Source: Branchiostoma lanceolatum
Lineage: Eukaryota; Chordata; Leptocardii; Amphioxiformes; Branchiostomatidae
Reading direction: 5' to 3'
Assembly (NCBI RefSeq): GCF_035083965.1
Contig: NC_089728.1
Span: 19,531,955-19,595,954, forward strand
Length of the DNA stretch: 64,000 bases
Under the pieces are notes generated by a model that saw nothing but the letters and a program-made list of their open reading frames with translations, ran no database searches and was not told the origin of the DNA. This document shows positions 1-51,759 of this stretch, piece by piece (the stretch's first letter is position 1; the number at the start of each line of letters is the position of its first letter). Both the position numbers and the translations under genes were made by a program.

Positions 1-3000
1 TGCTTGAGTAACTACTTTTGGCGTATTATTATCATTGCTTTGCCTTTGTCACTTACAATGGCTCTTATGGTGTATATCATATTCCAGCATATATAATATT
101 TAAGTCGCTTATCAACATATGAAAATACTGAAACTAATGATTAAATCAATGATTATAACACAGTATCGAAAACGTAAGCTAGCCCTTATTGTATTGTATT
201 AGTAATTATGACGTTAAGTCTTATTCTATACTTCCACTTTGTGTTATGTCAACGAATTCTTGCCATACCTTGTACTATGTACAATTGTCGTGTAATAAAG
301 TTCTTCTATGATCCGGAAACACATTAGTCCGTACGTATCTGCAAAAATAAGTCACCTGTCTGTAAGATCTGGGTGACCTGTCCAGGAGCTCACGGAACAA
401 TCGGAGTGCATGTTTGATCGGTTCTCTGAAATCAAGCTTGCGGTGGTCTGACATAGCTGTCGGCATTCCGTCGAAGTACCTTGTGAGAGCCTGGGCCAGA
501 AACTCTGAGTCACGTACCATCACAATAAGCTTCTTGGTGTTTTCTGAGAAATATGGAGTTATGGCACTTACTGAATATCAATGTTGCTGGGATGAAACGA
601 AGCAAAGTTTATATCAACACAATCAATCAAATTATAACTTGAGGCCACACCAACACCGACCCCCGTTCTCTGTACGAACGGTCCTATAATAGCTCTCTAC
701 AGATTCACTGTGCTCAATTCATTCAAAATGACATGATAAAAGAATTTGTATGTTTTCTCATACCAGGAAAAAAAGAACAGTCGCACGCTCGTGCAAGGAC
801 ACGGAGTAGTAATGCCATCAGGTCGGTTCTGACGAAGGTCTCGTCTAGCAGTTCCTGACACCCGCTTGACCGCTCCACCAACGTCAGGACGATCTGATAT
901 AGACGGGAAAATAGGTGTTATATTTTGAAACTGATGCAATATCCAGGCGACTTCTTCCTTTTTTTGACACTTTCTGGTGGCTTGCAAATGCCTCAATATT
1001 TTTTAAATTTCATTCCTCATTATGGAAGTTAAGTAAATGTGGAAGCTATTGATGAGTAAATGTAAACGTCCAGCTTGTCTAATCCTAGTGAAAAGGAAAC
1101 AGGTGTCAAACGGATCCCGTGGGACTCCGAGTGGTCTCCAGAATATTTATGGGCTCGGCCGGGCCCCGGTTGATTTTGATTCTTACATGTGACACAGGAA
1201 TGATACGGCCCGAGATTTTAATCATATTTTAGTCCAAGCTTCTTTGATCTCTTACAATCTAAATAGGTAGGAATGATTTGTGATGATGAAGGTTAGACAT
1301 CCAGGTAATAGGCAAATCGATGTACTCTGCAACTGGATATGATCCACTACATTTCATCAGTGACACTAAGCAAGATTTATCAATCAGCCATTTTTAAACA
1401 ACGAACAATGAATTGATATGCAAATAAAGTGAAGCCAATTTTAGATAGTCCAATCGAAAACAAAAACAAGATAATGTCAGGACAAAGTTGATGTTAATGA
1501 GTCAATCAGCTCCTGTTGGTTGAGCTAACGCTGGTTCGCAGGTAGCGCTTCGTCCCACGTGCCTGGCAGTTCGACACGTATGTCGCTCTCCTTTCCTGCT
1601 AAGGGTGGAATTGTACATCATATCATGCATGTATTGCCTCTCTAACCCCAAGTCTTTTTTTTAGTTTTGTATGTTGTACATTTTGCAGGCCTATGTATGT
1701 TTCTGTCACCTCTTTTGGGTCCTTCTCACACAGTTCCTGAAGCCTCCGGTACCCGATTGGTCTGATGACCCAGTCCCGCCGTCCGTCGGAGTCAACATCG
1801 GTCGGTCCCTGCCCATTTCTGTAAGGCATAAATAGATGGCATGAGTTGTCGTTTCGGTACTTATTTCATTCTTACAACACGTCAATGTTAGATCACGAAG
1901 ACTGCATATCGTTCTGAAACAATTCAACCTAAACCCAGCTAACCTAAATCTTTCAGGAAGACCTTAGTGCGGCCATGGCAGATAAACTGGTGTGGTCGGA
2001 AGTTGTGCATGGACTTGCCCCGTCCCCCCGGGGGGTCGACCGATGATGATGATGATGATTAGGTTAACTCTGAAAAGTTAATCTAAATCTAAGAGGACCT
2101 AAATTGTGAATTCACTGAACTGGGTGGGGGATAAGAAAAAAACTATTGCTGACCGACTTTAACAATTTACATCTATTAGATGACCAGAACCATATTCAGT
2201 GCAAACAACAGAATCGAGTTTGCACATGGCTTCATACATCGCTTGAGCTCACCTCTCCTGCTGATCGCCACCTCCTCTGCCCCTCCCTCCACCACACTGT
2301 CCACCCCTCCCGCCAGAGTTGCCGCGTCCGCGGCCACGCCCTCGGTAGCCGAGCCCCCTCCCTCTGTCCATGGGGAAGAGCTGGCTTCACAACAGCGACC
2401 AATAAGTATGCCATCAATTAACGATTTGTAGTAAATATTGCATCCCATCCAACCCTCAATACACACATAACACCCATCCTTTTAGCACATTTTAAACATA
2501 AGAAAGCCACAGCCACGTCTGTGTTGAGGGAGAAGCCACGAAGTAGCACTAATATTGTGATTTAGCATGAGTTTTTTTATAGCTTACTCGCTGTTTTCTT
2601 AGTTTGCTGTATAGTACGAGTTACATGTGGCGGTAAGTGATAAAAAATGACAGCATTAGCATCACGGTTTAATGTATAGACGACAGTTACTAATAACACC
2701 CCTCTACACGACAGAATATGTAAATTTTGTAATAACTCTTGTATTGAAGATGAAATGCATTTCTTACTAGACTGTGTATTGTATGAAGAAGAACGTCAGT
2801 CACTGTTCAAATTAATTCAGCTTGACAAGAGATGTAAAACAATATCAAAGCAAAATACTTTTAGACACTTGATGTCATGCAAAGATGTTAATGTGATGAA
2901 CGAAGTATGTAATTATGTAGCCATATGTTTTAAAAAGAGAGAAGAAGCCACTAGAACCTAGATATACAGTAGGACATTTAGAATAGTGCTTAGTAGTATA

Positions 3001-3873
3001 TTTAGACGTTAACGTCATTTTTATATTCTCTCAATTACCCTATGTATGGCCCCTGTGGCCCCATGTGCATTTATCCCCCCGGGGAACGAACATGCAATAA
3101 AGATTATTACTAAAATAAAATGTCACAATGACACTATTGGTAAACGTTAGTCGTCTGCCATTATTATGCCTCCCAGCCTTGATCTTTACGACCTCAAACA
3201 TCTGCATAATATCCAACCTTTACGAAATATCAGGTATCTAGTACATGAAATGTTTAACATGACATGAAACAACGACAGGGATTCAAAATATCCTCTACAG
3301 GCCAAGAGGCAGGCGAAACTTACCCCCAGACCAATCACGCTAGCATTTGTGGCTGCAGACAATGCTAGGAACTAAACTACCATAGTTGTCACACCACATC
3401 GAATATGAAAAAAAGCTACAGATAGTGTGCAGCTTTCCGAGTTATTCTTCAAGCAGAGGTTTCGGTGGGAGGGGGTGGGGCTAGGAGTGAGGGAAACATT
3501 AAACATTGCGGCCACTACCAACACCCCCCTCCCACCGACCGAAACCTATGCTCGGGCGTAGAATATTGCCCGGGCCCACTTCTATGGTAAACTTGATACT
3601 AGCTCGTCCAGACTGAATAGCAGACCTATCGTGAAAAGGTGCGAACACTGAAGCGATCGTTGCTTCGAGTCCAGTTTCACCTTAGGTATCTTTCACGGAC
3701 AGGTGAGTTCACCTACGGCGAAACCAACCATCTAAACAAAGGTAAATCTTACCTGAGACACGCCAGACTCGAATAAAACAGCTATAACGTCTATTTCTTG
3801 CTTAAATTCGTCACTTTCTTCTCTTTTCTGGTCAGTTGTAGAATGCAGAGCTGCCGAAACTCAAATGCACTCT
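1..3873 (-). CDS. ZNFX1-like: ZNFX1 paralog, 5' part, cut by the left window edge
   Basis: This is the N-terminal portion of a second ZNFX1-type helicase gene. On the minus strand I read a 5'UTR exon (about 3873 to 3753, donor GTAAGA) and coding exons 2371-2253 (ATG at 2371), 1818-1710, 893-764 and 543-356. Lengths are 119, 109, 130 and 188 nt, exactly those of the corresponding coding exons of the complete plus-strand ZNFX1 gene, with the same phases. The first coding exon gives an RGG-rich start (MDRGRGLGYRGRG). Later exons carry IRPIGYRRLQELCEKDPKE, LVERSSGCQELLDET and FREPIKHALRLFRELLDR, each closely matching the plus-strand copy. No in-frame stop is visible. The large helicase exon would lie left of base 1, so whether the gene is functional cannot be judged. 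Bases 1-355 are intron. Confidence 0.85.
1920..2060 (+). mobile_element. Possible LINE 3' tail fragment
   Basis: A short stretch reads W-SEVVHGLAPSPRGVD and ends in (GAT)n at about 2042-2058. This resembles the C-terminal end and microsatellite tail of non-LTR retrotransposons. It lies in the second coding intron of the minus-strand ZNFX1 paralog. The call rests on a short motif only. Confidence 0.3.
2675..3118 (+). mobile_element. 5'-truncated LINE, C-terminal ORF end and 3'UTR
   Basis: The open frame ending at 2961 carries a zinc-knuckle-like stretch (C-x2-C, then HFLLDC) typical of the C-terminus of LINE ORF2. It is followed by a short 3'UTR with AATAAA near 3098 and an A-rich tail. No reverse transcriptase is left. 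It sits in the first intron of the minus-strand ZNFX1 paralog. Confidence 0.6.
3442..3564. mobile_element. MITE, GGTTTCGGT-type hairpin, copy 1
   Basis: Inverted arms begin ATTCTTCAAGCAGAGGTTTC and end near ...GCTCGGGCGTAGAAT, with a GC-rich core containing GCGGCCACTA. A related copy is at 34762-34880. No coding capacity. Confidence 0.5.
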
Positions 3874-3965
3874 GATCTATGGGTGGACTATTGTTATATG
3901 ACCTATAGCCTGATGGGAAATGGGTTTCCCGTTACGCAACATAACAGTTTCGCCCACGTCACTCT
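3867..3965 (-). promoter_or_regulatory. Core promoter of the minus-strand ZNFX1 paralog
   Basis: Read on the minus strand, a TATA-like CATATAA (3900-3894) lies about 25 nt upstream of GATCAGAGTGC (3877-3867), the same block found at the inferred start site of the plus-strand ZNFX1 gene. Upstream, a TGACGT half-site (3961-3956) and GCGAAACT (3954-3947) also recur in the plus-strand promoter. The start site is inferred from this similarity, not observed. Confidence 0.55.
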
Positions 3966-4313
3966 GTTGACTCGGGCGCAGACATGTTTATGTACACAGA
4001 CACAGTATAGTAGCGATCTCGGTGCTGCAAACTGCATTGTTGCACACATTGTCACATATGTTTGCGATGAAGACGGCCCACGAGCCGTTATCAGTAACAT
4101 TGATGTTATAGTAATATTTCAAACGATTTGTCGGTGGCTCGTATAAAGTTGGACAGGTGAAACTTTAGTCAATGGCAGAGTAAGACGATACATGTATCCA
4201 TTGTTCAGTGCACCATACTTGTGATTGTAGTCGCATATGCTTGATGATGATGATCCACCGTGTTCTGCGGCTCAGAGGTTGTGGAACCAGTCGTTCTTGC
4301 TTACGAAAGAAAT

Positions 4314-4780: not shown

Positions 4781-6837
4781 GGGACAGACGGTCTGGAAAC
4801 ATTTAAAGTGGGTGACCCGATTTGAAGACTATATCACTTCTCAAGTTGTTCACATATTAAATCTCTGCAAACTATAATCATTGCAAATCAGTGAGAGTGA
4901 GAGGGAGGTGAAACCTGGTAGCGAGCCAAGTTTCAGTCGTATCCCGTCTTTTGTCCGGATCTTTTGTTACGGATGTAACCCTATATACTATTTTTGTTTA
5001 CTTTGGGGACTTGATCGCAAGGGGGTTACCTTCGGTTGCACTGGCGTCCTAGAGAAAGACTATATCAACCTGTCATTGCCTTCCACAAGATGTTGTGATG
5101 TTGTGTAATGCAACAATATTTGAACAGATGAAGCTTTTACTGAGCTTAGAGGACAGTCAAAGTGCATATTTTGTTTTAAAATACGGACTGAAGAAGTCTC
5201 GGTTAAAAAGACACAAGCAATGATATAAGATTATTACTCATTTGTTTATTTATTCAACCTACAAATTATTTGGGTTGCCCTTCAACAATATACCTTAATT
5301 GATTTCCAAGGGGGGCCCGAGAACATGGAAAAATCTGAACATAAGTTAAATGAAATTGAACGTATACACAGAAACTGATAATGAACTCACGAATAATAAA
5401 TGAATAATACAAGCATATGAAACGAAAACGAGTATACAAAACCAAGCCCTTAAGTCAGAGATGTTGTCCAAGTCGTAAATGGAAAAATTATTTCCTTCTT
5501 GATAGTTTAACAACATTTTACAACCAGCAAAATTCATCCATGCAAATAACTTCACAGCAAATTTGGGTAAGTCCATTTTTTGTTTTACAGAAATTACAGT
5601 TAAAACTCGTTTAAGAACTTCACAGCAAATAGTTTTGTAATTGATATTCATATTAATCGATAACGTTAGAAATAATGACAACAATACGTAAAGCGGGCAT
5701 GGTTCTCTAGCAATTTGTAAAATTTCTGAATAGAATGAGTTACAAATGATCGAATTGAGTTGTATCATTGTTGTCACATTATGAGAAAAATAGAACAAAA
5801 GTCATTATCAAACACTTCATTATCATACACTATACACCAAAACAGAAATAAACTCTGACTATAGTTCTTATGTATGCGACAGTTCTATGAATGCTTATTA
5901 CAAGTCGTCTATTTTGAGGCACGAGACGCTCTCTTCAGCATCACCATATTGATGTTGAAATACGTTTTTTTTACCAAAAAATTAATAGATATTTACATTT
6001 TTTATGCAAATGGCAGCTTTGTGCCTGAAATAGGTTAATGTAACTTTCTAACGGAAAAGCGGATGGCAACAAACACCTCGGATAATATACGAAGAACAAA
6101 ATAGCCGTACCAAGCTAGGGCACGTACCAATTTGGGGCATGCCCCGTTAAGTATTGCAATTGTGTTGGATTGTTTAACACGGAAGTTGATTTATTTAAAG
6201 TTGTATTTGCCACAAAATCATGTCATACACATGTAAGGTAATAGGTCCCAGGCTCAACCAACCAGCAAGTTTGTTGTTTTAATTGCATCTATCACAATGA
6301 GGGCAAAACAGGTGAATAAGCATTATCAATTATGTATTCTACCAACAAGGATGAGCTAACATTCGAGGTGCATAAGCACCTTTACAAGTTTCCCTACCAC
6401 ACACTATTAAGATAAGATAACATCAACAATATAGTACAGGAAAAATCAACTATATCTACAAAGTAATGTAGTGTGTTTCAACGTAGCTGTGACGTCACGT
6501 TAAAACATAATTCATGTAAGACAAGTATATGCCTAATGATAATGTCTATTGTACACTTTTTATTGTCAAAACATTATATAGACCTCCGCTTTGTTGCATC
6601 CTTACTTGAATAAAAACATTGTTTAGACTTTCTCCTGATTTGTCCACTGCATTTTTAGACTTTGTTCGAAGTCCTCTTTTGTAAAACCAAAAGTTTGACA
6701 TTTGATACATGTTTCTCAATAAAAGTCTATCATATTCTTCCTCCCAAGCTCGCAAACTGCTTTGACTTATGTACACGTACTTCACAAGGATTGTTTCCGT
6801 TGTGCCCTTTTTTTCAAAAGATTTACCTTGACTGTAA
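4781..6837. other. Non-genic stretch
   Basis: AT-rich DNA with no recognisable gene. It contains a 150-codon minus-strand open frame (5798-5346) of hydrophobic, low-complexity composition and another of 100 codons (6848-6546). Neither shows a motif I recognise, and I do not call them genes. Confidence 0.4.
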
Positions 6838-7193
6838 AGAAAACCCAAGCAATATCAGGGCCCGAAAATGGGATTTTGAAAGTCAATTTATTTAGTCATC
6901 TCCATACATTATTACTTCAAACAACACTATCACAATATATAGCGACATCCATGATGCAAAAATATGACGTCGGTATGATGTGAGACCTCACTGAAAATCG
7001 TCGCGGGCTGTTTTGTAGGTTCGCAAAACTAAGGGGATCATCGTACGGCTCGTTTTTGCACGGGTTTAAAATTAATGCTCAAAGTTTTAAGTTATTACGC
7101 AAATGTCATAAGAGTGTTATTAAATGTCCTACAATAACAATTTCAGCATTTTTCATTTCCATTTTTTTGGCCCTGATACTGCTTTGGTTGCCT
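6838..7193. mobile_element. TTAA-type MITE, copy 1 (inverted)
   Basis: The ends are ...AAACCCAAGCAATATCAGGGCC and GGCCCTGATACTGCTTTGGTTGCC followed by TTAA. Two further copies at 62.1 and 62.7 kb share the ends and the interior ('cacaatatatagcgacatcc', 'cagcatttttcatttcc'). TTAA target sites suggest piggyBac- or Kolobok-derived non-autonomous elements. Confidence 0.7.
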
Positions 7194-7588
7194 TTAAGGT
7201 TTTTAATTATCAAAGTGGGGATTCCAAATAAGCGATCCCTTTGGCCGTCCAAACTTTGAAGATGAATGGGCCTTTCAAAGATTGTCAATATCATTTAAAT
7301 AAACTCCATGTTATTGTTATGATTTCTAATTGCAGTTCAGTATTATTTCATTTTTCTTATTTGTTCGCTCAAACAGAAAATACAGAGAAATAAAGGAAAT
7401 GTAAAGAAGTAAAATCAATTTTCGGGGGAAGGGATGAAGCCTACATGGTTTATACTATGCCCTCCTCCTTCAAACTTAACAAATATTAATCATGAAAGTA
7501 ATATGATAATGTCATATCAAAGACCCATCAACTTTTTGACGCTCATCTGTGACCCGACTATCTCTTACCGGTGGAAATGTGGATTTCA

Positions 7589-9917: not shown

Positions 9918-11035
9918 GGTTTTCTGCAACCTGAACAGAACAGGAAGCTACTCTGTAAAGCCATACTAACTTTATGTCTTACCTCGAATCAAAAGATATC
10001 ATTCTCAGCTGGAAAATAAACATGAAAACAAAGTTTGATTGGGACGTCAGTGCCGCGTGGTATATGCTACAAATAGTTTCAGAGGGTAAATATAAAATAT
10101 CGTTAAAAAGGGTAGGTCTTAGTTCACACAGGAGAAAAATGTAGTCAAACTAATGTTGCCACCCAAGCACTATCTTTTCATTGTATTCTCTTGCTAACTG
10201 TATTGAAATCTCAGAGAACAAAGAAATTAAATTGGTGAATAATAATTAAAGTGACATTTTCCCTCCTTATTTTCTTGCTGTCCTTGTAAAATTGAATTGA
10301 ATTGATACGTGCCTCAGTAGTTGTTCCTTTGTAGTGTGTAAGTGTGTAACAAACAGATTAAAGTGATGCGGTCGTAGTGATCACATGATATACCGTTGTG
10401 TTTATTGTATGAAGCTGGCTGTTTGAATATTCATATTAAAGTTGTTTACTCTTTTTGCTGACGATTTTATGACAATATCCGCATACGGATACGGAAATCG
10501 GCAGATGGATAGAAAATTTAACACTTATATTACAAAGTTTCATCAGCTAATTTTGAAATCGTGAGTGTTTCGGACGCCATCTTTTATCGCAGTCCTAACC
10601 AATAACAGTTAGGCCCGTGAAATACCAGCTGTCACGAGAAACGGAATCTCGAGAAACGTTACGATTTTGCCTTTTTATATCTGCTTTGAGATGAATGTTC
10701 GTCCGATTGAATGCGCAATCCGAGGGTCCTGCTGCAGAAAGGGTCACTCCTACAATTTAACTTTCACACACACAACTTATGACATAAAAAGTACTCAATG
10801 ACAACGCACATAAATCATGTCACCCACTTACAATTTTTCCCTGATAAAAAAGTGCACTGCCATAAAGGTGCACAAAAGTACACACAGTTTCAGTGTGGGA
10901 ATATAAAGAGAATAACATAAGTTGGTTCACAAAGGAGGAAAAATGAAGTTAAAATCAATTTGCCCTCTCAGCACGTTCTTTTCGTTGTGGTGCTTTTTTT
11001 GCTTGTTTTTGTCAAAACTTTACATACATACCTAA

Positions 11036-19570: not shown

Positions 19571-19574
<4 letters not shown>

Positions 19575-19617
<43 letters not shown>
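19575..19617. repeat. (TA)n microsatellite
   Basis: About 21 uninterrupted TA units. Confidence 0.95.
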
Positions 19618-29706: not shown

Positions 29707-32520
<2,814 letters not shown>

Positions 32521-33694
32521 AACGTCTTCTCCGCGTCCTTCAAAAACTAGAACGATAGTAGAAACGTTTATCTTGTTGTGCAGAAGTCTGCTTCCTGACG
32601 ACTTTGACTCAAGTATGTAACACTATCCTTTTTCAATGTCATGTGACACTGTTTCATTGTTTCGAGGCATACCTGTTAACCCTCTGCGGTTACTTTTAAA
32701 AACCATGCTGCTTTCCACTTTCCTAAAGACAGTAACTGATAGTAAAATACGCATGGTACATAGTGGATAGTATGTACGAAACAACTACGGCAGTGCACAC
32801 TTCCCCCGACGGATCACTATCTTTTCCTTCTAGCTAGTCTTTTCGTCACACGGTCTCGTTCCGCAGATTATATTAGCCCAAGGGTGTCTAAAAGAATATG
32901 TATAATTGTGTAGAAATATGAGTTTAGAAAAACAACCAGTGTATGCAAAATCCCTCTAGATTCAACCCAACAACATTACTATAAGTGTTTTCATACTGAG
33001 TTGAATGCAGAGAGGTACTCTACATTAGCATCTGTTTAAGAATGAACTATTGGGAGCTCATAAATGAGAAGAACCATGTAAGCTATAGGGATATGTACTA
33101 TCATTCATGTGAAAATTTAGCTTCTGACAATAAGAAGACGTTGGTCAGGGGAAATCTTTATCGAACCGCCTTCTTTAAACCTTGTACCACACGTGATATA
33201 TGTACCTGCGAAACTAGCCGGGGGTGGTTCTGTAAACAATAGAAACAATAGACCTGTTTACGCCGCTACCGGGCCTTACACCTTACCCTCAGATCACGTT
33301 TCACTTGCCGAACCTTGGTCAGGCCATCGGCAAATTTTCCTGAATCTTTTTGATTGAAATTTCTGCTAGTATTAAAATGTTGTTTGGTCGTCTTTCAGGC
33401 AAACATACCCAAAAATGTTTGTAAGAATACTTTGAAAGCACAAAGTCGCAAGTTTATGTATGCGTCCGGTGTGAAGCCAAATTTCTGCCCCTACCAAATA
33501 AATACCCCAATACGTGTCACACACTTGTGGCCTGGATTTTCAAACAGAAGTCTGATCGACCCATGTAACCCTAACCCTAATCGCCAACCCTGAACCTATC
33601 TCCAAGCCTAACTCTTAACTCCACGCAAGAGCACTACCATGCGAAGCATATATCTGGCAGGGCACAAATGTGGCGTCACACCGGCTCAACAGAG

Positions 33695-33800
33695 TGACGT
33701 ATGCGAAACTATGAGTATGACGTAATGGGAAGTACCCTTCCCATCAGCCTTTGGGCTATATAAGGAAACAATAGCCTGCCAGGAGATCAGAGTGCAGTTG
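33695..33800 (+). promoter_or_regulatory. ZNFX1 core promoter
   Basis: TATATAA (33757-33763) lies about 32 nt before the inferred start A in GATCAGAGTGC (about 33789). Upstream are TGACGT (33695-33700), GCGAAACT and TGACGTAA (33718-33725), CRE/ATF-like sites also found in the minus-strand paralog. The 5'UTR exon (about 33789-33877, donor GTGAGT) matches the paralog's, and similarity continues into the start of intron 1. An ATG at 33871 opens a short overlapping upstream frame. Confidence 0.6.
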
Positions 33801-33879
33801 AGTTTCGTCAGCTCTACATCGAAAAACTGAGCAAGAAAGAGAAGTTAGCGGCTTCACTCGAATCTGACGTATGTTAGGT

Positions 33880-36530
33880 GAGTTCTTGGTTTGTCAAAAT
33901 GGCTTGTTTCGCCGCAGGTGAACACACCTGTCCGTGAAATGTACAGGTAAAAGCGGGACTCGAATCGCGTTTAACTTCCGTGTTTTCCCCTGTCGTAAAC
34001 TGAACGTCACAAGCTGTCTTTTTCACCGTACAAGTGGGGGTTTTCCGATTCTAAAGGCAAGATCTAGCTTGTTTTTGTCGTATTCAATGTGACGTCATGA
34101 CAATCATGGATCGAATCCTTGCTGTCATTATAATATATTGAATATATCTAGTCGAACTTCTAAAGCTGCAGTTATCCCAGGTCCGTTCTGTGTATCCCTC
34201 TGTGTGGTTATCTATGTATGTTAGCAGAAGGGAACGAACAAAGCAATGTAGCGATGATAACGTGACGACGACTTATGCTTTGCGTGCATATACTAAAAGA
34301 TTCTGGGTCTATTTCAGGCTTTCAACTTTCGGTATTTTTAAGGCTTGTAAAAATCTTGTAGACATCGATTAAATTGTAGTCTGAATGCCGATTTTAGCTT
34401 GTTATGAATAAACAAAGGTTCAAGCATACCTAACGTTAACATTGGTCTAATTGCTGTAACATTACATGCTAGTGAAGTTGGGGGGTAAATACATGGCAGA
34501 CGGCCAACATTTCCATCCCCTTACATAGCCTCCATAAGCAGTCCCCTGGCGGCGTTACCATTAGTGCAGTTACTACTACAAACATGTTGATCTAGGAATC
34601 GCTAAATACCAGTTGCCACATTCTTATCACCTTTCGCCACTGGATTAGAACTAACCTTGGTGACATCCCAGTTAGTTTACCGGGACTCTCATACTACTGT
34701 TGGTTGGAGGAGAGTATGGAAGCCCCTGTAAACTAACTAGGGTGGGACCCAGGGGCATCAGGTATTCTCCAATCAGAGGTTGGGGGGCTAGTAGTGGCCG
34801 CGATTTTTAACGAGGGAGGGAGCCATTAAAAATCGCGGCCACTACTAGCCCCCCGACCGAAATCTCCGCTTGGAGAATAGCACTAAGGCTAGTTTTAAAA
34901 TAGGCAGCAATAAGCAATGCATAACATTCCTCGTAAGGTTATTTTTGTCGGATTTTCAACAAGACTACAGCGAACCTTTGGTCACAGACGTACGGATGTC
35001 TTACATAGCTTCTGAACAATCTAAAACGTTCACGAAAGAATTAGGGGGTTCAAATTGTCGTAGTTGCGACTAAACTTTGTTGGGCATTGAAAATCTATCG
35101 GTTGCCAACTCTTTGTGTATAGAATATTGGGGCACAATCGATAAGAATTGTTTGTAGAAGGGGGATGGCAGTGAAACTTGGAAGGGAGCCAAGTTTCTGT
35201 AGACCGACATGTCATATAGTAATACGCGCGTCTTGATTGGTCAACAGGTGTAACCTTGCACCCATTGTGTACGTGTACCTTGATTGGTCGTCAGGTGGAA
35301 CGGGGCAAACCATTACAAATTATGTTATGGGGTCCGTTGTAATCATAATACTGGTTGTTTAACATGGTGACAAGAGCCATGCGATATTTGAGCCATAACA
35401 TGTTACACTGAACTGATTAGGAAAAGCAGGCGTACTTATCTGTTAACCCTTGTCTTGCTGACGTTTTTAATGCAATCTATTTCATTAAGTTGGTTTCTTA
35501 ATTAGGACATTTTCCCTTGACTTTTTTTTGCGCTGCGGTGGCATGGTTACTTCCGCCTTCGGTGCGTTTTGCTGCGGTGTGATGCGTTCAGTTGAAAAAT
35601 ACCCCCAACCTGTACATACACAGGATCCACATTCAGGTTCTATTATATACATAGAGAGCCTATAGATATAGGCTTCCCGGACGACAAGGGTTAATATGTA
35701 TGGAAACTAGCTAAAGGCCACCCCTGATGTTTGTAACATATCGATCATAACTAGCCTAGGGCATGGACTTTACCATGTACTTCAAGATACGCTACTGTAA
35801 TTTCATGATTTGTTAACGATAACTTAATTCTAACGGTCATTGTTCAACCACTAAATTGCATCAGAGCAAATACTTGATCGCTAGCATTTGGGACAGTAAT
35901 GTTTGTTCCCACCGTTAAAATTAAATGCAGTGAACTACTCACTTTCCCCCAACCCGCTAAAATTACCAACTGCAATATTAGATGTATGTACAGTATTTGG
36001 TGCCCGTGATGATTTTTGCTATTCTAAATAGCTCTTTAAATCATATACATAGTAGGGAATGGTGTGTTACAGTCTGGTTAAGAAATAAAGATGTAGATCA
36101 CATTGAAATGCGACAAAAAAGAAAGAGAAATTCAATAATCAAACCGTAAGAGCGACAAAAAGTCATCCTCGCTACCTACGTTTGAATAATAATCAAAAAT
36201 TCATTCCACGCCCTGAAATCCTTAATTTTCTATATGTCTCGGAAAAAGAAGTCAAACGCAAATAAGACAATCTAGAATAAATTTTTAGACTAGAATAGTC
36301 ACATGCTATATTTTTACCCATTGTCTGTCCGTCCTTTCATGTTACATGTACTTGCAATTAGCCTACGGGGAAGAACTTGCAATAAACTTCACATATTTTC
36401 TTTGTGTATGAAAGGAAAATTTCTCTGGACAAGGTTGTTGTCATGCCGACCATTCTTTTGTCCAAAGATTGGAGGTCTCCATGAGCCATCAGCCAAACGG
36501 CTCATTTTTATTTGTATTTTTCTCTTGGTA
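33880..36530 (+). other. Intron 1 of ZNFX1
   Basis: No gene inside. It contains two foldback elements (about 34663-34751 and 34762-34880); the rest is featureless to me. Confidence 0.6.
34663..34880. mobile_element. Two adjacent foldback MITEs
   Basis: First hairpin: 'cccagttagtttac' pairs with 'gtaaactaactaggg' (about 34663-34751). Second: 'ggggggctagtagtggccgc' (34779) pairs with 'gcggccactactagcccccc' (34834), within outer arms ATTCTCCAA and TTGGAGAAT (34762-34880). The second is related to 3442-3564. Confidence 0.7.
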
Positions 36531-36568: not shown

Positions 36569-39500
36569 ATGGACAGAGGAAGGGGGTTCGGCTACCGAGG
36601 GCGAGGCCGTGGACGAGGCAACTTTGGCGGGAGGGGTGGACAGCGTGGTGGAGGGAGGGGCAGAGGAGGTGTCGATGGGCAGGAAAGGTGAGGTCAAGTT
36701 TATTTTTTCTTCAAATTTTCGACCGAGTTCTGTTTAATTTTCACTCTTGGCCCACTAACTTAAGTTTGGTTCCGGCCAAAGGGGACTTAGAGTGTGGCCC
36801 AACATATTGGAACTAGTGCTGCGTACCGGTACACAGTACCGGTACTCTACCATAAAAATTGATTAGGTACAGGTCCAAAATACCGGATCATGAAGTACCG
36901 GTACTGTACCGATATAAATTTACACCAAGTATGTGCTTATTTTGTGACTGATCTCCTGACCTCATGGCCTCATGCAACACCAAACGTGACCAAAGTGACA
37001 CCTTGGAACAGCGTAACTAATATGCAACAGTGGATTTGGACGGTAGGAATCTTTTTTTTTCCACATTTTATTCACAATATACATCAATGTTACAGCATAA
37101 TATATTACACATGTTACAATGTTGGCACCAAAGAGTATATGACATTGTGTTACAGTACATAGACTGGCAGGATGGTTCAAGATTAAACCACGTATCACAT
37201 AAAGATGCTGGTTGTGTCATAGTAACATATTTACAGTGTATTATACATTTTGTGCTAAGTCAGGTTATCAGTTGTTTGTTTCCCGTTTACTCCACATTTT
37301 AAAGTAAATAACACATTCACAACATAAAACAGCGTAACTAAAAGGCCGTCAAAAAAAAACAAGCCATAAACTAAAACATAACTCATACATGCATAAAATA
37401 TCCTAACAAACTCAGTTCCTTGTTTACAAAAGTCAACAAAACTCATCAATAAAAGCTATCTATAGTAATCAAGAGGTAGCTAGAGGTCAACAGGCAGTGG
37501 TAACTCTGTTCTTCATTTCCCATTTAAAAAGAATGGGCAAATTGTTTTGATGTGAGGCGGGATTTTGGGTCTTTCTTAGAGATATCCATGTTTTGAATAT
37601 GACCCATTTAGCTATAAATATTATTAATATTCGTCTTTTAAGGTGGGGTATGTTCAGAGTCTGACTGACTTTTCCTAGTATTACTTCTTCAAAATCTATT
37701 GTAGTATTACTGCTACTGAAAGGTATGTAATGCTGAGCTGTGTCCCACAGGTCTGATAATCTCTTACATTCCACAAACATGTGTCTATAATTATCAATAT
37801 CACCACTATCACATAGTTTACATATAGGATCTATTATTAGCCCATTTTCATCATGTATTCTCCATTTGTTTAATTTTTCACCACACGGTAATATTTGATG
37901 TAGTAGTTTGTAATTTAGTTCAGCTATTTGTGTGTCCTTACATGCAATTTTGCAGAGCAAAGTCCAATTTTTTTTCCAGTCAAAAGATTCAGTGAAATGA
38001 AAAATTGTCTGCCTTTTTTGTTGACAGCTTGGCAATACTGCATGTTTAAGAGCGAGTGTAGAATAGAGTAATTTACAGGATTTTGTTGTAGCTTTAAACT
38101 GATGTGGAGGTGGGGCTACAAGATGTGTTGGGCGGTCATCTGAGTAGAGTTCTTTTTTACAAGAGTTTTCCAGGTGCTGGGTAGGGCTTGATACAGGGTT
38201 ATTTGCTCAATTAAAGTACTGGGTCGGTGGCTAAGTGTAGGGTATTCATTTGATGAGATAAATTTTCCCCTGGGGAATAGGTCTTTCACATATATTATGC
38301 CTTCTTTAATCCATTGAGGGAAGAATAAAGTTTTACCTTGTGATCTAATATTTCTATTACACCATATTATCTGTTCTTTTAAGTCCTGGGGCCTTACGTC
38401 ATCAATTTGCTCCATTTTGTGATAGGATAAAATGACTTCTTTATAAAATTTGGATATATGGATGAAGTTTGGTCCATCCCCTTCTTTTTCAAAGTTCATC
38501 TACAAAATAAGATTATTGGGACCAAAAGAATTAACATACAACAGGGGGAGTGCTTTCCATCTAGATTTATCATCCACTATCAACCTATATATCCAACGTG
38601 ATAAGAGTGCGTTTTTCTGGTAATCTAAGTTTAACATGTTGAGTCCACCCATTTCAGTGGGTTGGCTTATGACATCTCTTTTGATTTTGTCCGTTCTGCC
38701 TTTCCATAAAAACTTGAAAATTTCTCTTTTTATATATGTAACAACCCAGGGTGGGGTATCAATCATTGCCATATTGTGTATTATCTGTGAAAGAGCTAAT
38801 GACTTAATGATAGTGATTTTCCCATACAAAGTTAGATTTCTACATCTCCAGACTTGCAATGTGTTTTTCAGCCTTTCTATCTTTTTCTCCCAATTTAGAA
38901 GTTCACACTCATGGTGGAGGGAAGAGTTATAGAAATAGATGCCTAAGGATTTTATGATGATGATGATGACAGGTTTATTCAGTAGACAAACAGATACAGG
39001 CCTCATGGCAGCCCTGAGGCTGAATTAATAGGCTTGTTCACAATATCAATAATCAAATTTACAGTACAGTTCACAATATCAATAATCAAATTTAAAATAC
39101 ATTTCATTGTTACCATAACAATTACACATTTCTTCGGATTTAAAATCTTGATGTCATATTCTCTTACTAGTCAGTGCTGTTTAGCAGAGTTACCATGTAG
39201 TAAATGGGGCTCTTAGTGAATCTAGCGGTATTTGCTTTAAAAGTCTGTAGCCGGTTACACGACCGAGTCTTTCTGCCGGAAATCGCCTCGCGGCACGGTG
39301 GGAGGCAGTCTCGGAAGATCGGGGATCTCAGTAGGGAGCGAGCATAACTTCTGCATAGTTCTAGTCGTCTTTGGGCCAGTGGTGTAAGGGAGAGTTCTGT
39401 CAGGGCTGAGCTGTAGCAGGTGTAGTTCTGTCTCAAGATGATCTTACACGCCCTCTTCTGCACTGTCTCAATTGACTTAGATTCAGCCACAGTCAATCCC

Positions 39501-42500: not shown

Positions 42501-45500
42501 TTGTACGACTGACAACTTATGCCATCCATTATGTTGTACAGATATGGACAGGGGCCGTCCAACGGCAACTTCGACAGACGGCGGGAGCGGGTCATCAGAC
42601 CTATAGGGTACTGGAGGCTGCAGGAACTGTGTGAAAAGGACCCAAAGGAGGTGAGAGAAAATACATAAACACAATACAAGATATAGACAATCACACAAAA
42701 TGCATGAATTATTTCGAAAACATATACTGGTTAATTCACACTTTGTGTATATCAAGAAAATTTCAACCATTTGTGAATATTTGGGAAATGATGACTCAAC
42801 CCTATTCAGACCGGGCCTTTTTTTTTTGGCATCCTGTGACGGAGGGGTCGGGGAGATGATCCCTTCCGCCGTAACTCCTAAACTACCTACGTACACCTAC
42901 TAACTTCTCTACCGTCTATCTCAGGTCGTTCTAACGTTGGTGGAGCGGACTAGCGGATGTAGGGAACTGTTGGATGAGACCTCCATCAGAAAAGACATGG
43001 TGGCTTTACTACTCCGTGTTCTCGCACGAGCGTGCGACTGTTCTTCTTCTCCCGGTATGTAGCATTTATCTTCTTACATATCCTACCTAACAATCGTGGG
43101 ATTATGGGATCTTAGTATTCTACTTGAACGTCATAGATAATCACATACATTTTTTATTAATCAACATAAGAATATACAGGACACAGAGGTGATGCATTCT
43201 AGCAAATAGCTAATATCAAACATTATCTCTGAAAATAGACATTACAGCTGGCGACTACAATAACAAAACAATTAAATAACAAACAGCATTTCGGTTGGGT
43301 AGTCCGATACAGACAAGCATACATGATAAACACAGTCATACTAAGGTTACAATTCAAGTTGCAACAAATATATAAATGTATAGTATGTCAGTCAGTCAGT
43401 TTTGAAACGTACAATGTAAGTTTGTGTTAAGCTTAGAATTTTACTATTACTTTCAGAAGACAAAAAAATTAACGCTTTAATAGAAAATAGGTGCGACCTT
43501 GTTCAGATAGACTGATAGAATCGAGAATGGGGCATAATAGATTCAAATAGCATTGCTTTAAAGGCATCCAGAGCATTTTATGAGGTTTGAAACTTGAATG
43601 AAAAACTCCAATTTCTTGGCATACCTACACATAGTAAGTTTTGATAACACTATACCATTACATATCGACATTAAAGGAGCAAAGATACGATGTCGTTGTG
43701 TGGTTAGACGTGATAGAAAATCCAAGCCCTAATAGACTGATCCTGTCTGTCCATCACGATTAGCGGTTCGACCAATGAGAGAGTGACTGCTTGTCCGTCA
43801 AACATTTGCATTTCTACGTTTTGACGGAGGTGGGCGGGTCTATGGTATCAGTCTTTTTACACTAGGCGCGTGCAACTAAAAGATCACCATGTAGCTTATT
43901 TTTGTGCCACTTTTGTGCACTTTTGATAAGAAATCCGCACGCAAATGTAGTAAACAGTGGCATTAAATGTCAATTTCATAAAGATTACAGCAACTAGAAT
44001 ATTTCCAGTTTTCAAGCCTCATAAAGTGCTCTGGGTGCCTTTAACTTCGTTCGAGATTCTGAGGACGCAAGCTCAATGACATGTACTGTGGGTAATATGT
44101 CAAAGGTGAAGGCCCCTGAGACAGAAACGAAACTTGTTTGAACACTTTTATGCAAATCTAGACAATGCTCGAGAGTCGAGACCAGAACGGTTTACACGTC
44201 AGGGGCCTTCGCCTTTGCGCATGCGTACACGGAATCATAAACGAACTTATCTATACGTTTAGGGCAAAGTCCACTAATCAATTCCCGTACCTATTTATAT
44301 AGAAAACATGCAAGAAAAAGGCTGTCAAGTTTATAGTTCATGAAAAAACTCACATTGGCGGCGTAGCTTGACCTCTAAAGTGTCTATTTAGTGGTTTGGG
44401 CCCGATTTCTACCGGTGGAAAGTCTCGTTACAGCTGGAAGAAGATGACCTTTGATAACCCTCTCTTGACAAGAAATTATATAATCAAACTGAACTTGTCC
44501 TACAATGTACCGGACACTAAACATGGCTAAAAAGCCTGTTTTTCTAACAAAATATAATAGCCACAACCCTTCTTACCTGTAATTTCCAGCTCCAAAATGC
44601 CAACATATTCCAACAAAAAGGCTTCTTACAGTTTACAATGCCAGCTGGCGTGGAAATGGACCCTCCGCCCATGCCTGTAATTTTGACCTTTGCCCTTTAA
44701 TGAAATGCCCTGTCTCCTTATTTTCTCAGAGAACACCATGAAGTTGATGGTGATGGTCCGTAACTCCAAGTTCCTGACCGGGGCCCTTGTGATGTACTTT
44801 GCCGCCATGCCAGCAGAGAGCTCGTACCACGTACAGCAGGAGTTCGGAGAACCAATCAGATGTGCTCTCCGGGTGTTCCGTGAGCTCCTGGACAGGAATC
44901 CCAGTTCTCACATAGAGGTGAGTTTTATGTTTACCTTCATTGTTTTTGCTCCGTTCCCTCCTCTTCTTCTTCTTGAAACAGATGAGGCGGTTGTTTCCAT
45001 GGTTACTGGAGGCGTAGCAGATACCATGTTGTGCTCGATTACATACTGTAGCGAGTGGCAGGACAGAGCTAGAGGGGCTGGTCATAATATATATTAATAT
45101 ATCTGAGTAAGAAGAAATAGAGCAGTTTTTAGCAGGCAAGACCATTTGAAGGAAAAATCATGTACATTTGTTTCCAAATGTTACCTTTCTAGTTTGTATT
45201 GAACCTATTACCCCTAGCTCTTATGATCACTGATAAGTTGTATTGTGTTTAGATGCTAAGTCAGCTATAAGCTTATTTCAAGCTCAACGATCATTGTATT
45301 ATGTATACTATAATTGCCTCTAATGTTTCAGGTAACCTTTGATTACCACTTTGCCATTGTAATGTCCTAACAGGTAGGGATCCCGTTAGCAGTGTTAGGG
45401 ACTACTATCAACACATTAAGAGCAGTAAGCACTGTTGTGGACGAAGACATAGAGACAAGGTTAGCGGAGGTTGATTCGCGCAAAGACGCGATTATCGAAG

Positions 45501-48500
45501 CCCATCGCAAGGGAGCAGTTCTAAAAGACGACGACGGGACACTGGCTAACCGACTGGACCGACAACTTCAGCTCGAGACGCCTCCGGACGATTTCAGGGA
45601 ACTGACGGTCATCCCAACTTTCGAAGACATCCACACCGACAAGGATCCCTTCCTTCGCCCCAACATCGTCCGTGGCCGCTACGCAGACGTGGACACGTAT
45701 CTCGACGTCCAGTTCAGGCTACTGCGAGAAGACTTCGTACGTCCACTGCGAGAAGGTATTGCCGAGTTCCTGGACATGCGCAGACGTGGGTTGGGAAAAG
45801 ACCGGAGGCTGCAAGACATCCGTGTCTACCATGACGTTCACGTTGTTCACCCTATCTGTACGGTGAGTGGGATCGTCTACAGGATACAGTTCGACGCTGC
45901 AAGACTCCGAGGTGTACGCTGGCGGTCCACAAAGCGACTCATCTTCGGGTCTCTTCTCTGCCTCTCCAAAGACGAGTTCAAGACCATGTTCTTCGTCACT
46001 GTCGCAAATCGCGACCCGAAACAGCTCGAACAAGGGTGCGTAGAAGTACGATTCGAGCAAAACCTTGAAGACGCATCGGACATCAGCCCAACCGACACGT
46101 TCATCATGGTGGAGACATCTGCCTACTTTGAAGCCTACCGACACGTCCTAAAAGGTCTTCAAGAGGTACAGCAAGACACAATGCCGTTCACCAAGTACAT
46201 CGTGGACTGCGACTGCGCCAACGGCGTGAATCCACCAGCCTATCTGCGAGGGAGGTACGGATTCGGTGGTACGGATGTCAACTACGACCTCAGGGCTCTA
46301 GTTGAGACCCCCAAGCACGAAACCCCGAGACGCCGTGCAAGGCCAAGGTTTAGAGACCTTGTTGGCTCCGATCTTGAAGAATCAGAAGGCTCGGACGATG
46401 AAATTGAAGATCATGGCGATGTATACGGCAGCAGCAACCCACATCTTGCTAGAGCTCGGTCAGTTCCCATTCTACGCGACCACATGTGGCCTTCTGCTGA
46501 TGCTCTACATCTTGACGAGTCCCAGTACCGTGCCGTGAAGATGGCACTGACTAAAGAGTTCTCCGTCATTCAGGGCCCACCTGGAACTGGTAAAACTTAC
46601 ATCGGGCTCAAGATCGTACAAGCTCTGCTGAAAAACAAGAGCGTGTGGCTGAGGGAGCAAGATCTGATGAACAGCCCGACTAGGCCGATCCTCGTGGTTT
46701 GTTACACTAATCATGCCCTTGATCAGTTCCTCGAAGGCATTTCTGAGTTCCATTCGACAGGCATTGTGAGAGTGGGAGGGCGAAGCCGCAGTGAGAAGAT
46801 GGAGCAGTTCCAACTGAAGACCATCAGGTTCAGTAAGAGGAAGGACAGAAAGGTCCCTCGGTATATTCACGAAGGCGCTGCTGAAGCGAGGAATGACATG
46901 CAGCGTTTTCAGCAACAGATGGAGATGGCCGTGGCACAGATGATGGCGACGCAAAGAGGACTCATTCATGAAGATGCTTTGACAACCTTCATGGACCACA
47001 AACACAGAGACACATTGATGGACACCTGGCTCGTTGCAAACGACGATCCGTACGCGTGGTCCGGCGGTGGACAGAAGGGTTCCGTAATGGTCCAGTGGCT
47101 TGGCCTGGCAGGGAATGTCTTCATACTACCTACAGAAGACGGGCAGAACCAACCTGAAGAAGGGAATGAAGAGGAGGAGGAGGCACTGGAAGACGAAGAG
47201 ATTGACGTCATGGAAGAAGCCGACTTGTTGGAGGAACAGCGCTTGCTCGACGACGAAGAGCTGCTGTACGGTCATGACAAGACGAGAGGGAAAGCCAAGA
47301 GGAAAATTGTCACTACGGACCTCGCGCTTGACGTCGAAGCGTTACAGTTTGAGGCAGAAAACCAGGGTGGATGGCAGGTACAGACCAATGCAAAGAAGAA
47401 GAAACAGAAGGTGAAGCACGAGCTCAGCAAGACGGACATGATGACGGAAACTGACGTTAGCCGCGTCCACAATGTCTGGACGCTGCAGCTACGGGACCGA
47501 TGGCGTCTCTATCGTCACTGGGTGGCCAGGTACTGTGCCGAATACAAGAAGTCCATCGAGGGCTATGAACGAGACTACGAACGTGCAGCCAAACGTCTCA
47601 TGGAGTTCCAGAGCCAAGAAGACGGAGAGATCATGAAGGAAGCAACCGTCATCGGAATGACCACTACCGGTGCTGCCAAATACCGGTCTCTCCTGCAAGA
47701 CATCAAGCCAGCTATCATCGTTGTGGAGGAAGCTGCAGAAGTTCTGGAAGCCCACATCGTCACAACGCTGTCTCAGCAGTGCCAACATCTCATCCTCATC
47801 GGGGATCACCAACAGCTCCGCCCCAATCCAACCGTCTACCAACTGGCGAAGAAATACAACATGGATATCTCTCTGTTTGAGCGAATGGTCAAGAACGACA
47901 TGCAGTGTCAGCGGCTTCAGTCACAGCATCGCATGCGGCCAGAGTTCGCACGTCTCCTGACACCGCACATCTACGAGTCACTGGACAACCACGAATCCGT
48001 GCTCAACTTCGAGAACATCAAGGGCGTCTCGTCCAATATGTACTTTGTGGATCACAGCTACTGGGAAGCACACGACAGCGACACCAAGAGCAGGTCCAAC
48101 ATGCACGAAGCACGGTTTATTGCCAGCTTCTGCCGCTACCTTCTTCAGCAAGGGTACAGCCCGTCCCAGATCACCATCCTCACCACGTACACGGGCCAAC
48201 TCTTCAACTTCAAGAAGGTCATGCCGCGGCAGGTCTTTGAGGGTGTCCGCGTCTCCGCCGTGGACAACTTTCAGGGAGAGGAGAACGACATCATCCTGCT
48301 GTCACTGGTGCGGAGCAACGACGAGGGCAACGTTGGCTTCCTCAAGGTTTGTAGATGTGTAGATGTTACACAATTTTATATTGTTTTTGTGTTGCTGTTT
48401 TGTCTCTAATTCTCTATGAAACATTATCTTAGGTAGAAAAATTCCTGTACAAGTTTCACTTCCATAAATGCATCGATTTCATCATTTGTTTCTCTTCTTA

Positions 48501-51500
48501 GGTTGAGAACCGTGTTTGCGTTGCTCTCTCCCGAGCCAAGAAGGGTTTCTACGCCATTGGAAACCTGACAATGTTGGCGGAAGCGAGTCCTTTGTGGAGC
48601 AAGGTAATGTACAATGTGGATTCTTGTCAAATCATTGCAAACTTGTTGCATTTCAACACAACATACGAAACCTTTTAGGAACTTAACAAAAAAAGGTTTT
48701 GTTTATTTTCTTTCTAGATCATCAAAGAGCTTCGAGAGCAAAGCTGTGTGGGCACTCACCTCAACCTGTGCTGTCAGAACCACCCTGGCAGCACGATTCC
48801 TGCTGCAACCGAAAAGGACTTTGAAAAGGCTCCAGAAGGCGGCTGCATGCTGCCCTGTGAATTCAGGCAAGTAAACACATTGTATACATGTATGTCGCCA
48901 TGGCAATGACTTGTTCTTATATTGGGCGGGCCGACTGCTCTCTCTTCTGGCTGAATTGCGAAGAGCTTACAATTGGCGGGGCTAGATTGCAAGGTTCTGG
49001 AGCCGCTGCCTAACTCAAGTGACCTCAATACGAAAATTGTCCCATGTGCGGCCACAGCACTGTAGGTTCGTAGTTCTTAGACTATGTCATATAGATACTA
49101 ATGACAAAGTTGTTATTCTCTTACAGGTACCTCAATACGACAATTGTCCCATGTGCGGCCACAGGACAGTAGGTTCTGAGCTCTTAGACTGTGTCATATA
49201 AATACTAACGACAAAGTTGTTGTTCTCATACAGGTGACCTCAATACGATAATTGTCCCATGTGCGGCCATTGGGCTGTGTGTTCTCAGTTCTTTAGACTA
49301 TGTCATATATAGATACTAACTACAGGATTGCTCTTCTCATACGGGTGACCTCAATACGACAATTGCCCCATGTGCGGCCGTAGGGCTGTTCTGAGTTCTA
49401 ATACAGTGTCATATAAATACTAACGAAAAAGTTGTCTTTCTCATACAGACTGAAGTGTGGCCATGTCTGCACAAGCGTCTGCCACCCAACAGACCCTGAA
49501 CACGAAGAGTACAAGTGCAAGAAACCTTGTCCTAAAGTTCTGTGTAACCTTGGACACAAGTGTAGGAAGCTCTGCTCTCAGCCATGCGGAGATTGCAAGG
49601 TTCCAGTGGAGAAGATCATTCCAAGGTGTCAGCACAAGCAGATGATACCATGTTCCACGTCTCCAAATGTGTTCAAATGCAAGGCACCATGTGCCAAGAC
49701 CCTGCCATGTAACCACAGATGCAAGAACACGTGTAGCCAGGAGTGCAGCATGCCCTGCATGGAGATGGTAACATATCAGCTCCCCTGTGGCCATACTACC
49801 CAGGCAGCCTGTTCAGCCAAGGAAGAGAGCCTGGTCTGCGACAGTCCTTGTCAGCAGTTGCTGAGGTGCCAACACCCCTGCGCTGGTACATGCGGCCGCT
49901 GCAAGCAAGGAAGGTTGCACCAACAGTGCACACATCACTGTAACCGTGTGCTCGTTTGCTCCCACCAGTGCACGGCACCTTGCACGCGGAATTGCCCTCC
50001 ATGCACCAAACCTTGTGAGAACCGCTGCATCCACAGCCGCTGCCCACACCAGTGCGGGAAGCCATGCGTCCCATGCCAAGAGCCCTGCGAGTGGACTTGC
50101 AGACATTACAAGTGTAACAGGCCCTGTGGTGAACCTTGCGATCGTCCACGATGTGACCGCCCCTGCCGGAAGACCCGACGCTGTGACAAGTGCAAGAAAG
50201 ACCAGCCATGTATCGGTATGTGTGGGGAACCATGTCCGAAGAAGTGCCCGGTTTGCGATCGTGAAGAGGTAACAGAGATTTTCTTCGGAACAGAAGACGA
50301 AGACGACGCCCAGTTCGTGCAGCTTGAGGACTGCGGTCACGTGCTTGAGGTCAGCGGAGTAGACCAGTGGATGGACACCGTTGACAAAAGCATTCAACTC
50401 AAAACCTGCCCGAAATGCAAGACACCAATCCGGCGCAACCTGCGCTACGGGAACATTATCAAGAAGACGCTGGAAAATATCGAAAAGGTGAAGAAGAAGT
50501 GGTACGGCGACGACGTACAAAAGGCACAAACAGCAGCCACTGCCAACAGGTTGATAAGAGAGCTCCAAGTTGATGCTGACCTGGTCACGTATTGCGCAGA
50601 GACCTCAGAAGATCTCCTTCAGCAAATGGAAAGCCGTCGGCTGTTCTCACTCGACCAGATAACCATGTATGAAAACAAAGTCCGTTTTCTGAAGGGGCTT
50701 TCAAAGATAAAGAAAGAGAAGAGGCGAGATCTTCTCCTCTTTGGATACACGCACCACAATACAGATATGGATAAGGAAATCACAGAGATGGAAAAGTGGT
50801 TGCATCGGCGGACGGCCCGTGTTGGTGATCAGGTAAGACAAGAACTAAATACACTTCACATATTAAGTTTAGCTCAAATTTGTGTTTGTTTTTGCTGCTG
50901 TTATTTTTTCTAATAACCTGGCGCTAGCTCATCACAAGATATCCTCTGTTCACAGGAGTGGGAGGAGTTTGGGAGAGAGATGATCCGAATGAACTTTCTC
51001 CTGAGGCTTCGAGTCCTACAGGCGCAGATCCGGAAGAAGGGAATCACCCTGCACGACCTGGCACAGGCGAACCTCGCCAGTGCAAAACGTAGGCTGACCG
51101 GGCTGAAACCTTTCACGGAGAACAGAGAGGAACTGGTCAAGCAAGCCCTGGAAAAGGTTAAGAGGTTGACACCCAGGCTGACGGGAGGTGCCGACATTGG
51201 TATCTCAGAGGAGGAACGGGTTCAAGTGGTTACGGCCATGGGTCTGACACGTGGACACTGGTTCGCCTGTCCCAATGGACATGTGTACGCCATTGGAGAC
51301 TGTGGAGGAGCAACGATGGTAAGCATTGTTTCATGCATCTGTGGTAAACTGTTATGTAGGCTCGAGTATAAATTTTGGCCATTTGTTTGTATGTTTGTTT
51401 GGCCATTGGGGTTTGAGTTTATTGAGAAACTCTTTAGCCTCTTCTCAGAGCTTGTCCTTCAAGGGGTCAGAAATAACATAGTACATGTACATACAACAGA

Positions 51501-51759
51501 CAATTCATAAAGGTGCATGTACTGGCACATTGGAGACATTCGTAGTTTATAAACGGACTGCGTCAGTAAACATCAACCCACCTCCTTCACTTGTTTTCCA
51601 CAGGAAAGCACGTGTCCGGAGTGCAGTGCTAGAATCGGAGGAGGCAGCCACACGCTTCGGTCGGACAACCGTTTGGCCCCGGAGATGGACGGAGCGAGGC
51701 ACGCTGCCTGGTCCGATCAGGCCAACATGGAGAACTACCTACTGGACTTCGACGACTAA
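36569..51759 (+). CDS. ZNFX1: ZNFX1, NFX1-type zinc finger RNA helicase (complete)
   Basis: Ten coding exons: 36569-36687, 42542-42650, 42925-43054, 44730-44917, 45374-48346, 48502-48603, 48718-48866, 49449-50832, 50956-51318 and 51604-51759. They join in phase to 1891 codons, predicting 1890 residues (human ZNFX1 1918). The N-terminus is RGG-rich (MDRGRGFGYRGRG). An SF1 helicase core follows: GPPGTGKT near 583, an acidic linker about 770-850, VVEEAAEV near 965, GDHQQLRP, QHRMRP near 1033, VDNFQGEE near 1145, and ALSRAKKGFY near 1180. NFX1-type Cys/His fingers span about 1258-1530 (repeated CGHxC and CxxPC). A C-terminal RZ-type finger (ACPNGHVYAIGDCGGAT, CPEC) ends the protein. In mammals ZNFX1 senses viral RNA and in worms it acts in small-RNA inheritance; the role here is inferred. 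All introns are GT-AG except 48867 (GC-AG). Intron 2 carries nested transposons. Confidence 0.93.
37050..42165 (-). mobile_element. Tx1/L1-like LINE, 5'-truncated and split
   Basis: Minus strand. Upstream part 42165-41740: DISSNIINQGW, then FPLNRGIRQGCPISALLF and QVADDTTLFVSD, the reverse-transcriptase core. Downstream part 38955-37487: SLGIYFYN, NLTLYGKITIIKSL, FKFLWKG, and a C-terminal C-x2-C...H knuckle (CKLCDSGD, HMFVECKR). A 3'UTR follows, then AATAAA and an A-run at 37050-37062. Stops and frame changes break the second part (38499, 38035). It is split by the insertion at 38956-41739. Confidence 0.8.
38956..41739 (-). mobile_element. CR1/jockey-type LINE inserted in the Tx1-like LINE
   Basis: One open frame (to the stop at 39167) encodes the C-terminal part of an AP-endonuclease (GGGVAVYT, VYHPPNS, VVLGDLN, IGDSDHNCV) and a complete reverse transcriptase (PVPKE..P..LRPISLTSV, RSTTHYL, DFTRAFDSVHH, GVPQGTKLGPLVF, FKYVDDLS, ARILGIILQ). 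It ends in a short 3'UTR with a (CAT)n tail. The start is truncated in the endonuclease. ATTTTAT flanks both ends (38949-38955 and 41740-41746) as a 7-bp target duplication. The long undamaged frame implies a fairly recent insertion. Confidence 0.85.
42795..42895 (+). repeat. 'CCCTATTCAGAC' repeat fragment
   Basis: The phrase 'aaccctattcagac' followed by a G- or T-homopolymer also occurs at 19371 and 30537, suggesting a shared transposon end. Here it sits in ZNFX1 intron 3. Confidence 0.4.
43562..44040. mobile_element. TTAA-flanked MITE in ZNFX1 intron 4
   Basis: The termini AGGCATCCAGAGCATTTTAT and ATAAAGTGCTCTGGGTGCCT are inverted repeats, with TTAA at 43558-43561 and 44041-44044. No coding frame. 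Confidence 0.75.
48867..48872 (+). other. GC-type splice donor of ZNFX1
   Basis: The junction ATTCAG/GCAAGT keeps the frame as CEF-R-LKCGHVC across the intron. The nearby GTAAAC at 48871 would shift the frame. GC-AG introns are a known minority class. Confidence 0.75.
49020..49448 (+). repeat. Four tandem 105-110-bp copies of an intron 3' end
   Basis: Each unit starts '(g)tgacctcaatacga.aattg' and ends 'ttctcatacag' or a variant. Ends fall at 49126 (ttacag), 49233 (catacag), about 49343 (catacgg, AG lost) and 49448 (the acceptor of the zinc-finger exon). Confidence 0.85.

Follow-up and report, generated by a model that had tools for sequence, protein, structure and literature searches.

Two oppositely oriented ZNFX1 loci

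The window analysed here is a stretch of 64,000 nucleotides from the lancelet Branchiostoma lanceolatum. It carries a complete ZNFX1 gene on the plus strand (the right gene) and, near its left edge, the first four coding exons of a ZNFX1-like gene on the minus strand (the left gene). The parts of the two loci are as follows, each listed in the order of transcription.

3664..3970, minus strand: left promoter, 5ʹ-UTR exon and start of the UTR intron, placed by homology to the right block
2253..2371, minus strand: left ZNFX1-like coding exon 1, 119 nt from the ATG, RGG-rich, GT donor
1710..1818, minus strand: left coding exon 2, 109 nt, AG/GT
764..893, minus strand: left coding exon 3, 130 nt, AG/GT
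356..543, minus strand: left coding exon 4, 188 nt, donor CAG/GTGACT
33686..33964, plus strand: right promoter, 5ʹ-UTR exon and start of the UTR intron, placed by homology to the left block
36569..36687, plus strand: right ZNFX1 coding exon 1, 119 nt from the ATG, RGG-rich
42542..42650, plus strand: right coding exon 2, 109 nt
42925..43054, plus strand: right coding exon 3, 130 nt
44730..44917, plus strand: right coding exon 4, 188 nt
45374..48346, plus strand: right coding exon 5, 2973 nt, with the ZNFX1 domain and the larger part of the SF1 helicase (PF25396, PF13086, PF13087)
48502..48603, plus strand: right coding exon 6, 102 nt, contains VALSRAKKG
48718..48866, plus strand: right coding exon 7, 149 nt, GC donor
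49449..50832, plus strand: right coding exon 8, 1384 nt, with a putative region of NFX1-type zinc fingers
50956..51318, plus strand: right coding exon 9, 363 nt, encodes the first half of the RZ finger (PF20173, E 6e-11)
51604..51759, plus strand: right coding exon 10, 156 nt, encodes the second half of the RZ finger and carries the stop codon (PF20173, E 8e-07)

The 10 coding exons of the right gene (36569-51759, plus strand) encode 1890 amino acids without an internal stop. This gene model was assembled manually on the basis of splice signals and homology, including the choice of each splice site, and its junctions are AG/GT with the sole exception of the GC donor after exon 7. An AATAAA sequence follows exon 10 at position 51900. 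The ZNFX1 domain was recovered by Pfam with an E value of 1e-38 and 132 bits against a cut-off of 27, and both families of the SF1 helicase core, AAA_11 (PF13086) and AAA_12 (PF13087), also exceed their Pfam cut-offs, as does the RZ finger. The region of exon 5 (query 45374-48358) matches human ZNFX1 chain 9q9z with an E value of 3.5e-266, and the right gene carries the sequences GPPGTGKT, GDHQQLRP and VALSRAKKG, which we take to be helicase motifs. Residues 1-329 match the human N-terminal domain (9eve, E 6.8e-21; 9q9z, E 2e-44), and 9eve probably corresponds to the ARM-type fold described in the accessible portion of PMC11959080.

The zinc-finger portion is a candidate assignment: 69 residues of exon 8 form a gapless alignment with residues 1383-1451 of human ZNFX1 (E 2.9e-18), where the aligned human chain ends at 1451, and the right gene has three matches to a regular expression for NFX1-type fingers. 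No Pfam family was found in exon 8, even at an E value of 10, and NCBIfam yielded six matches for exon 5, all below their cut-offs, and no match at all for exon 8. When exon 9 was compared with solved structures, RNF213 chains were recovered with E values of about 7e-4, ranking behind four designed proteins whose matches look like chance matches to repeats. A search for the exon 5 protein in viral contigs produced seven stretches that match a pattern, none of which was confirmed.

Intron 7 of the right gene contains a 107-nt repeat in four copies (49019-49448) directly upstream of exon 8. On visual inspection, an AG resembling the exon 8 acceptor (TCTCATACAG) is preserved at the ends of three of the four units, and several possible acceptors for exon 8 would therefore lie in a row.

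Between the two loci, a tandem array of CTHRC1-like sequences occupies positions 19097-31371 on the minus strand, with all of its pieces in one orientation.

19282-19097, 24057-23851 and 30444-30229, minus strand: CTHRC1-like C-terminal copies
25893-25522 and 31371-30973, minus strand: collagen-plus-CTHRC1 pieces

The middle C-terminal copy (24057-23851) has a stop near the end of its alignment. Two genes for i-type lysozymes (Destabilase) are located on the minus strand at 53346-54365 and 60830-61972, with identities of 78% and 72% over the two segments that were aligned. Together with the CTHRC1-like genes, they would be consistent with an invertebrate such as a lancelet. An open reading frame (ORF) with leucine-rich repeats was found by Pfam at 7589-9947 on the minus strand; it is followed in other frames by an apparent transmembrane segment, recognized by eye, and then by a tail built from 5.3 copies of an 87-bp (29-aa) unit (7701-8153). 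Searches of the window with Rfam gave no matches at the gathering score, and ARAGORN, under the bacterial genetic code, predicted no genes.

Comparison of the two copies

A preliminary description of this DNA had noted that four coding exons have identical lengths in the two genes, that their phases match and that both proteins have RGG-rich starts, and all three observations held. The lengths of 119, 109, 130 and 188 nt, with exon 1 counted from the ATG, sum to 546 nt on each side. The right exons start in phases 0, 2, 0 and 1, which are necessarily also the phases of the left exons because the lengths are equal, and joining the left exons gives an open frame. Within residues 1-40 there are nine RG pairs in the left protein and 10 in the right. 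However, paralogues commonly keep their introns, and equal exon lengths therefore add little beyond the homology itself. All seven visible junctions on each side have the expected AG or GT (the exon 1 acceptor, before the ATG, lies outside this count), and the splice donor of left exon 4 is weaker than its right counterpart.

The left and right N-termini are identical at 130 of 182 amino acids and align without an indel or a stop. At the nucleotide level, exons 1 through 4 are 91, 83, 82 and 72% identical, respectively, and the 106 differences among 546 nt (19%) are distributed as 33, 24 and 49 over the three codon positions. These values correspond by the NG86 method to a dN of 0.17, a dS of 0.43 and a dN/dS of about 0.39, and we judge the synonymous divergence to be well above what would be expected for alleles. 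In a blastn self-comparison of the window, the four exon pairs appear as inverted matches with E values from 4e-56 to 2e-29. Residues 59-179 of the left protein match the human N-terminal fragment 9eve (E 1.4e-12), the left N-terminus also matches 9q9z (E 4.6e-11), and no Pfam family was found in the 182 visible residues. Exon 1, which encodes the RGG segment (36569-36687 and 2253-2371), has a dS of 0.18 versus 0.48-0.56 in exons 2-4; this low value could possibly reflect gene conversion or constraint in an exon that is short and compositionally biased.

Outside the coding exons, similarity is largely confined to the upstream blocks. No match between left and right was found by blastn for introns 2, 3 and 4, and intron 1 gave a single match, of 20 nt, close to its 3ʹ end. 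Intron 1 is 5854 nt long in the right gene versus 434 nt in the left. Remains of a reverse transcriptase were observed on the minus strand within right intron 1 (37487-42148), where Pfam recognizes RVT_1 at 39167-42148 and, below its cut-off, zf-RVT at 37487-38206. The 5ʹ-UTR introns share four short blastn matches, the longest of which spans 78 nt at 81% identity and covers the intron start (33890-33964 and 3740-3664). In the right copy, the start of this intron also carries a palindromic pair of the form CAGGTG...CACCTG.

The upstream blocks themselves (3664-3970 and 33964-33686) match in inverted orientation with 69% identity and an E value of 6e-29 by blastn, and a putative 5ʹ-UTR exon with its donor can be placed in both from the stretch that is conserved in the alignment. 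The preliminary description had called the two promoters alike in their TATA and CRE motifs. This description is reasonable but approximate: one TGACGT sequence is aligned in both blocks (left 3961, right 33695), whereas a second TGACGT on the right (33718) corresponds to TTGCGT on the left, and the TATA-like box reads TATATAA on the right (33757) and CATATAAC on the left (ATATAA at 3899).

Origin and retention of the left copy

We consider it probable (about 0.82) that the locus arose by an old, local and inverted duplication of ZNFX1 that included the promoter, that both copies have been kept, and that the left gene is full-length, as predicted from its visible part. The ZNFX1 gene would have been copied locally into inverted orientation, and each retained copy would be transcribed divergently from its own TATA/CRE-like promoter. 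Each would then yield an SF1 helicase that binds RNA and combines an RGG tail and an ARM-like N-terminal domain with NFX1 fingers and, at the C-terminus, an RZ-type finger for ubiquitin transfer, and for the left protein the same helicase and finger exons are expected past the window edge. By analogy with vertebrate ZNFX1, the proteins may serve antiviral defence by sensing foreign RNA or gathering it into clusters.

Retention of the left copy was evaluated by introducing 106 substitutions at random into the right sequence in each of 5000 trials. A total of 52 amino-acid changes is observed between the copies, versus a random mean of 67.8, and none of the 5000 trials gave a number as low; moreover, 4840 of the 5000 randomized right sequences gained a stop. 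If only the left copy is assumed to evolve neutrally, 12-25% of simulated copies still lack a stop when 66 to 40 changes are applied, and the open left frame alone is therefore weak evidence. Where the right protein agrees with human, the left keeps 31 of 37 positions, compared with 56 of the remaining 89 (Fisher p 0.016). No asymmetry in rate relative to human was detected (four versus six unique matches), although the 126 columns compared offer few informative sites and low power. Estimates of dN/dS by exon, which cover 180 of the 182 codons because two that span or abut exon borders were omitted, are below 1 in every one of the four exons and offer no indication of positive selection. Conservation is lowest in exon 4, with 35 of 62 residues identical and a dN/dS of about 0.53. 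The best reading of these sequence statistics is that the visible left exons evolve under purifying selection.

A broader proposal, compatible with the duplication reading, is that the pair belongs to a larger ZNFX1 family that is expanding and diversifying under viral pressure. The neighbourhood is indeed rich in local duplicates, and the available text of PMC7253469 describes an expanded family of 11 ZNFX1 copies in the earthworm Eisenia andrei. However, no convincing third copy is present within the 64 kb, and the per-exon dN/dS values lack the signature of positive selection, such that we regard this extension as possible but tentative. Besides the two known loci, tblastn matched only positions 28518-28678 in the window, a weak Cys-rich pair of matches (E 9e-06) that we rejected as chance because each of the three frames read contains at least one stop. 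An inverted duplication of larger extent was also rejected because the intervening CTHRC1-like pieces all share one orientation. The other inverted self-matches (E values up to 1e-8) consist of one repeat, which pairs 6835-7197 with two sites between 62.1 and 63.0 kb, and of a further two short matches of 41 and 47 nt.

The left copy might instead be a truncated duplicate, a 5ʹ fragment that encodes a short RGG-ARM protein or decays as a pseudogene. Only 182 codons are visible, and the last visible exon is both the least conserved and the one with a weak donor. However, its four exons are without stop, frameshift or broken splice site, and the overall pattern is one of purifying selection. Furthermore, neither AATAAA nor ATTAAA occurs within the outermost 360 nt of the window on the side of the left gene, where 355 nt of left intron 4 are visible (right intron 4 is 456 nt long). 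We therefore consider truncation unlikely. Still less probable is a functional variant of this arrangement, in which the left gene has no helicase and produces a constrained, stand-alone RGG and ARM-like protein that would regulate the complete gene next to it or serve as its decoy, with a promoter shared by descent with the full ZNFX1.

Assemblies of highly heterozygous marine invertebrates can place a haplotype incorrectly, but there is very little chance that the left copy is such an artefact of the right gene: the two share a contig but point in opposite directions, show the exonic difference and dS reported above, have introns of different length and mostly unmatched intron sequence, and are therefore paralogues rather than alleles, as the preliminary description had maintained.

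Relationship to ZNFX1 and RNF213 in other animals

The N-terminal domain, the ZNFX1 domain, the SF1 helicase and the start of the NFX1 region of human ZNFX1 (9q9z and 9eve) all align to the right gene. The two proteins differ ahead of the aligned N-terminal domain, where the human protein has about 225 amino acids and the right gene about 55, which are RGG-rich. Six NFX1-type zinc fingers are listed for human ZNFX1 in the excerpted text of PMC11959080.

The RZ finger (PF20173) is common to the right gene and RNF213, consistent with the weak direct match to RNF213 chains. Residues C1834 and H1855 of the right protein are 21 residues apart, the same spacing as Cys4462 and His4483 of RNF213, and may by analogy be catalytic; the RNF213 authors, in the portion of their report available (PMC12075652), state that the dyad is also present in human ZNFX1. 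Unlike RNF213, the right gene has no RING family recognized by Pfam in exons 5, 8, 9 and 10, and the P-loop matches of its exon 5 are to SF1-type helicases.

The accessible sections of a 2026 review (PMC13270118) characterize ZNFX1 as an E3 that is activated by RNA and has an SF1 helicase, and contrast one group's finding of direct ubiquitination of RNA with another's that RNA is retained in ZNFX1 aggregates. Roles in dsRNA sensing, inflammasome inhibition and mRNA stability are named in what is available of a 2025 review (PMC11959080), and the grouper protein is presented in a partial text (PMC12585102) as an interferon-stimulated dsRNA sensor that is said to be without an ARM domain. Judged from its sequence, the right gene appears to have the parts needed for a role as an RNA-activated antiviral ubiquitin ligase.

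Multiple copies are likewise known from Eisenia andrei and from Aplysia californica, for which three candidate ZNFX1 genes are given in the accessible text of PMC9334734; in the lancelet, two copies share one locus in inverted orientation. The partly accessible literature retrieved for ZNFX1 with amphioxus, Branchiostoma or lancelet contained no report of a lancelet family, although earlier reports may exist. Expansion of ZNFX1 outside vertebrates is already known, and the locus described here adds a further duplicated pair of this conserved immune helicase. A complete invertebrate ZNFX1 with the RZ dyad spacing would indicate that the architecture combining a helicase with ubiquitin transfer is older than vertebrates. 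The pair is otherwise an ordinary duplicate, and its further interest is that a constrained paralogue next door may offer a natural pair for testing whether the roles of sensing and ubiquitination have been split.
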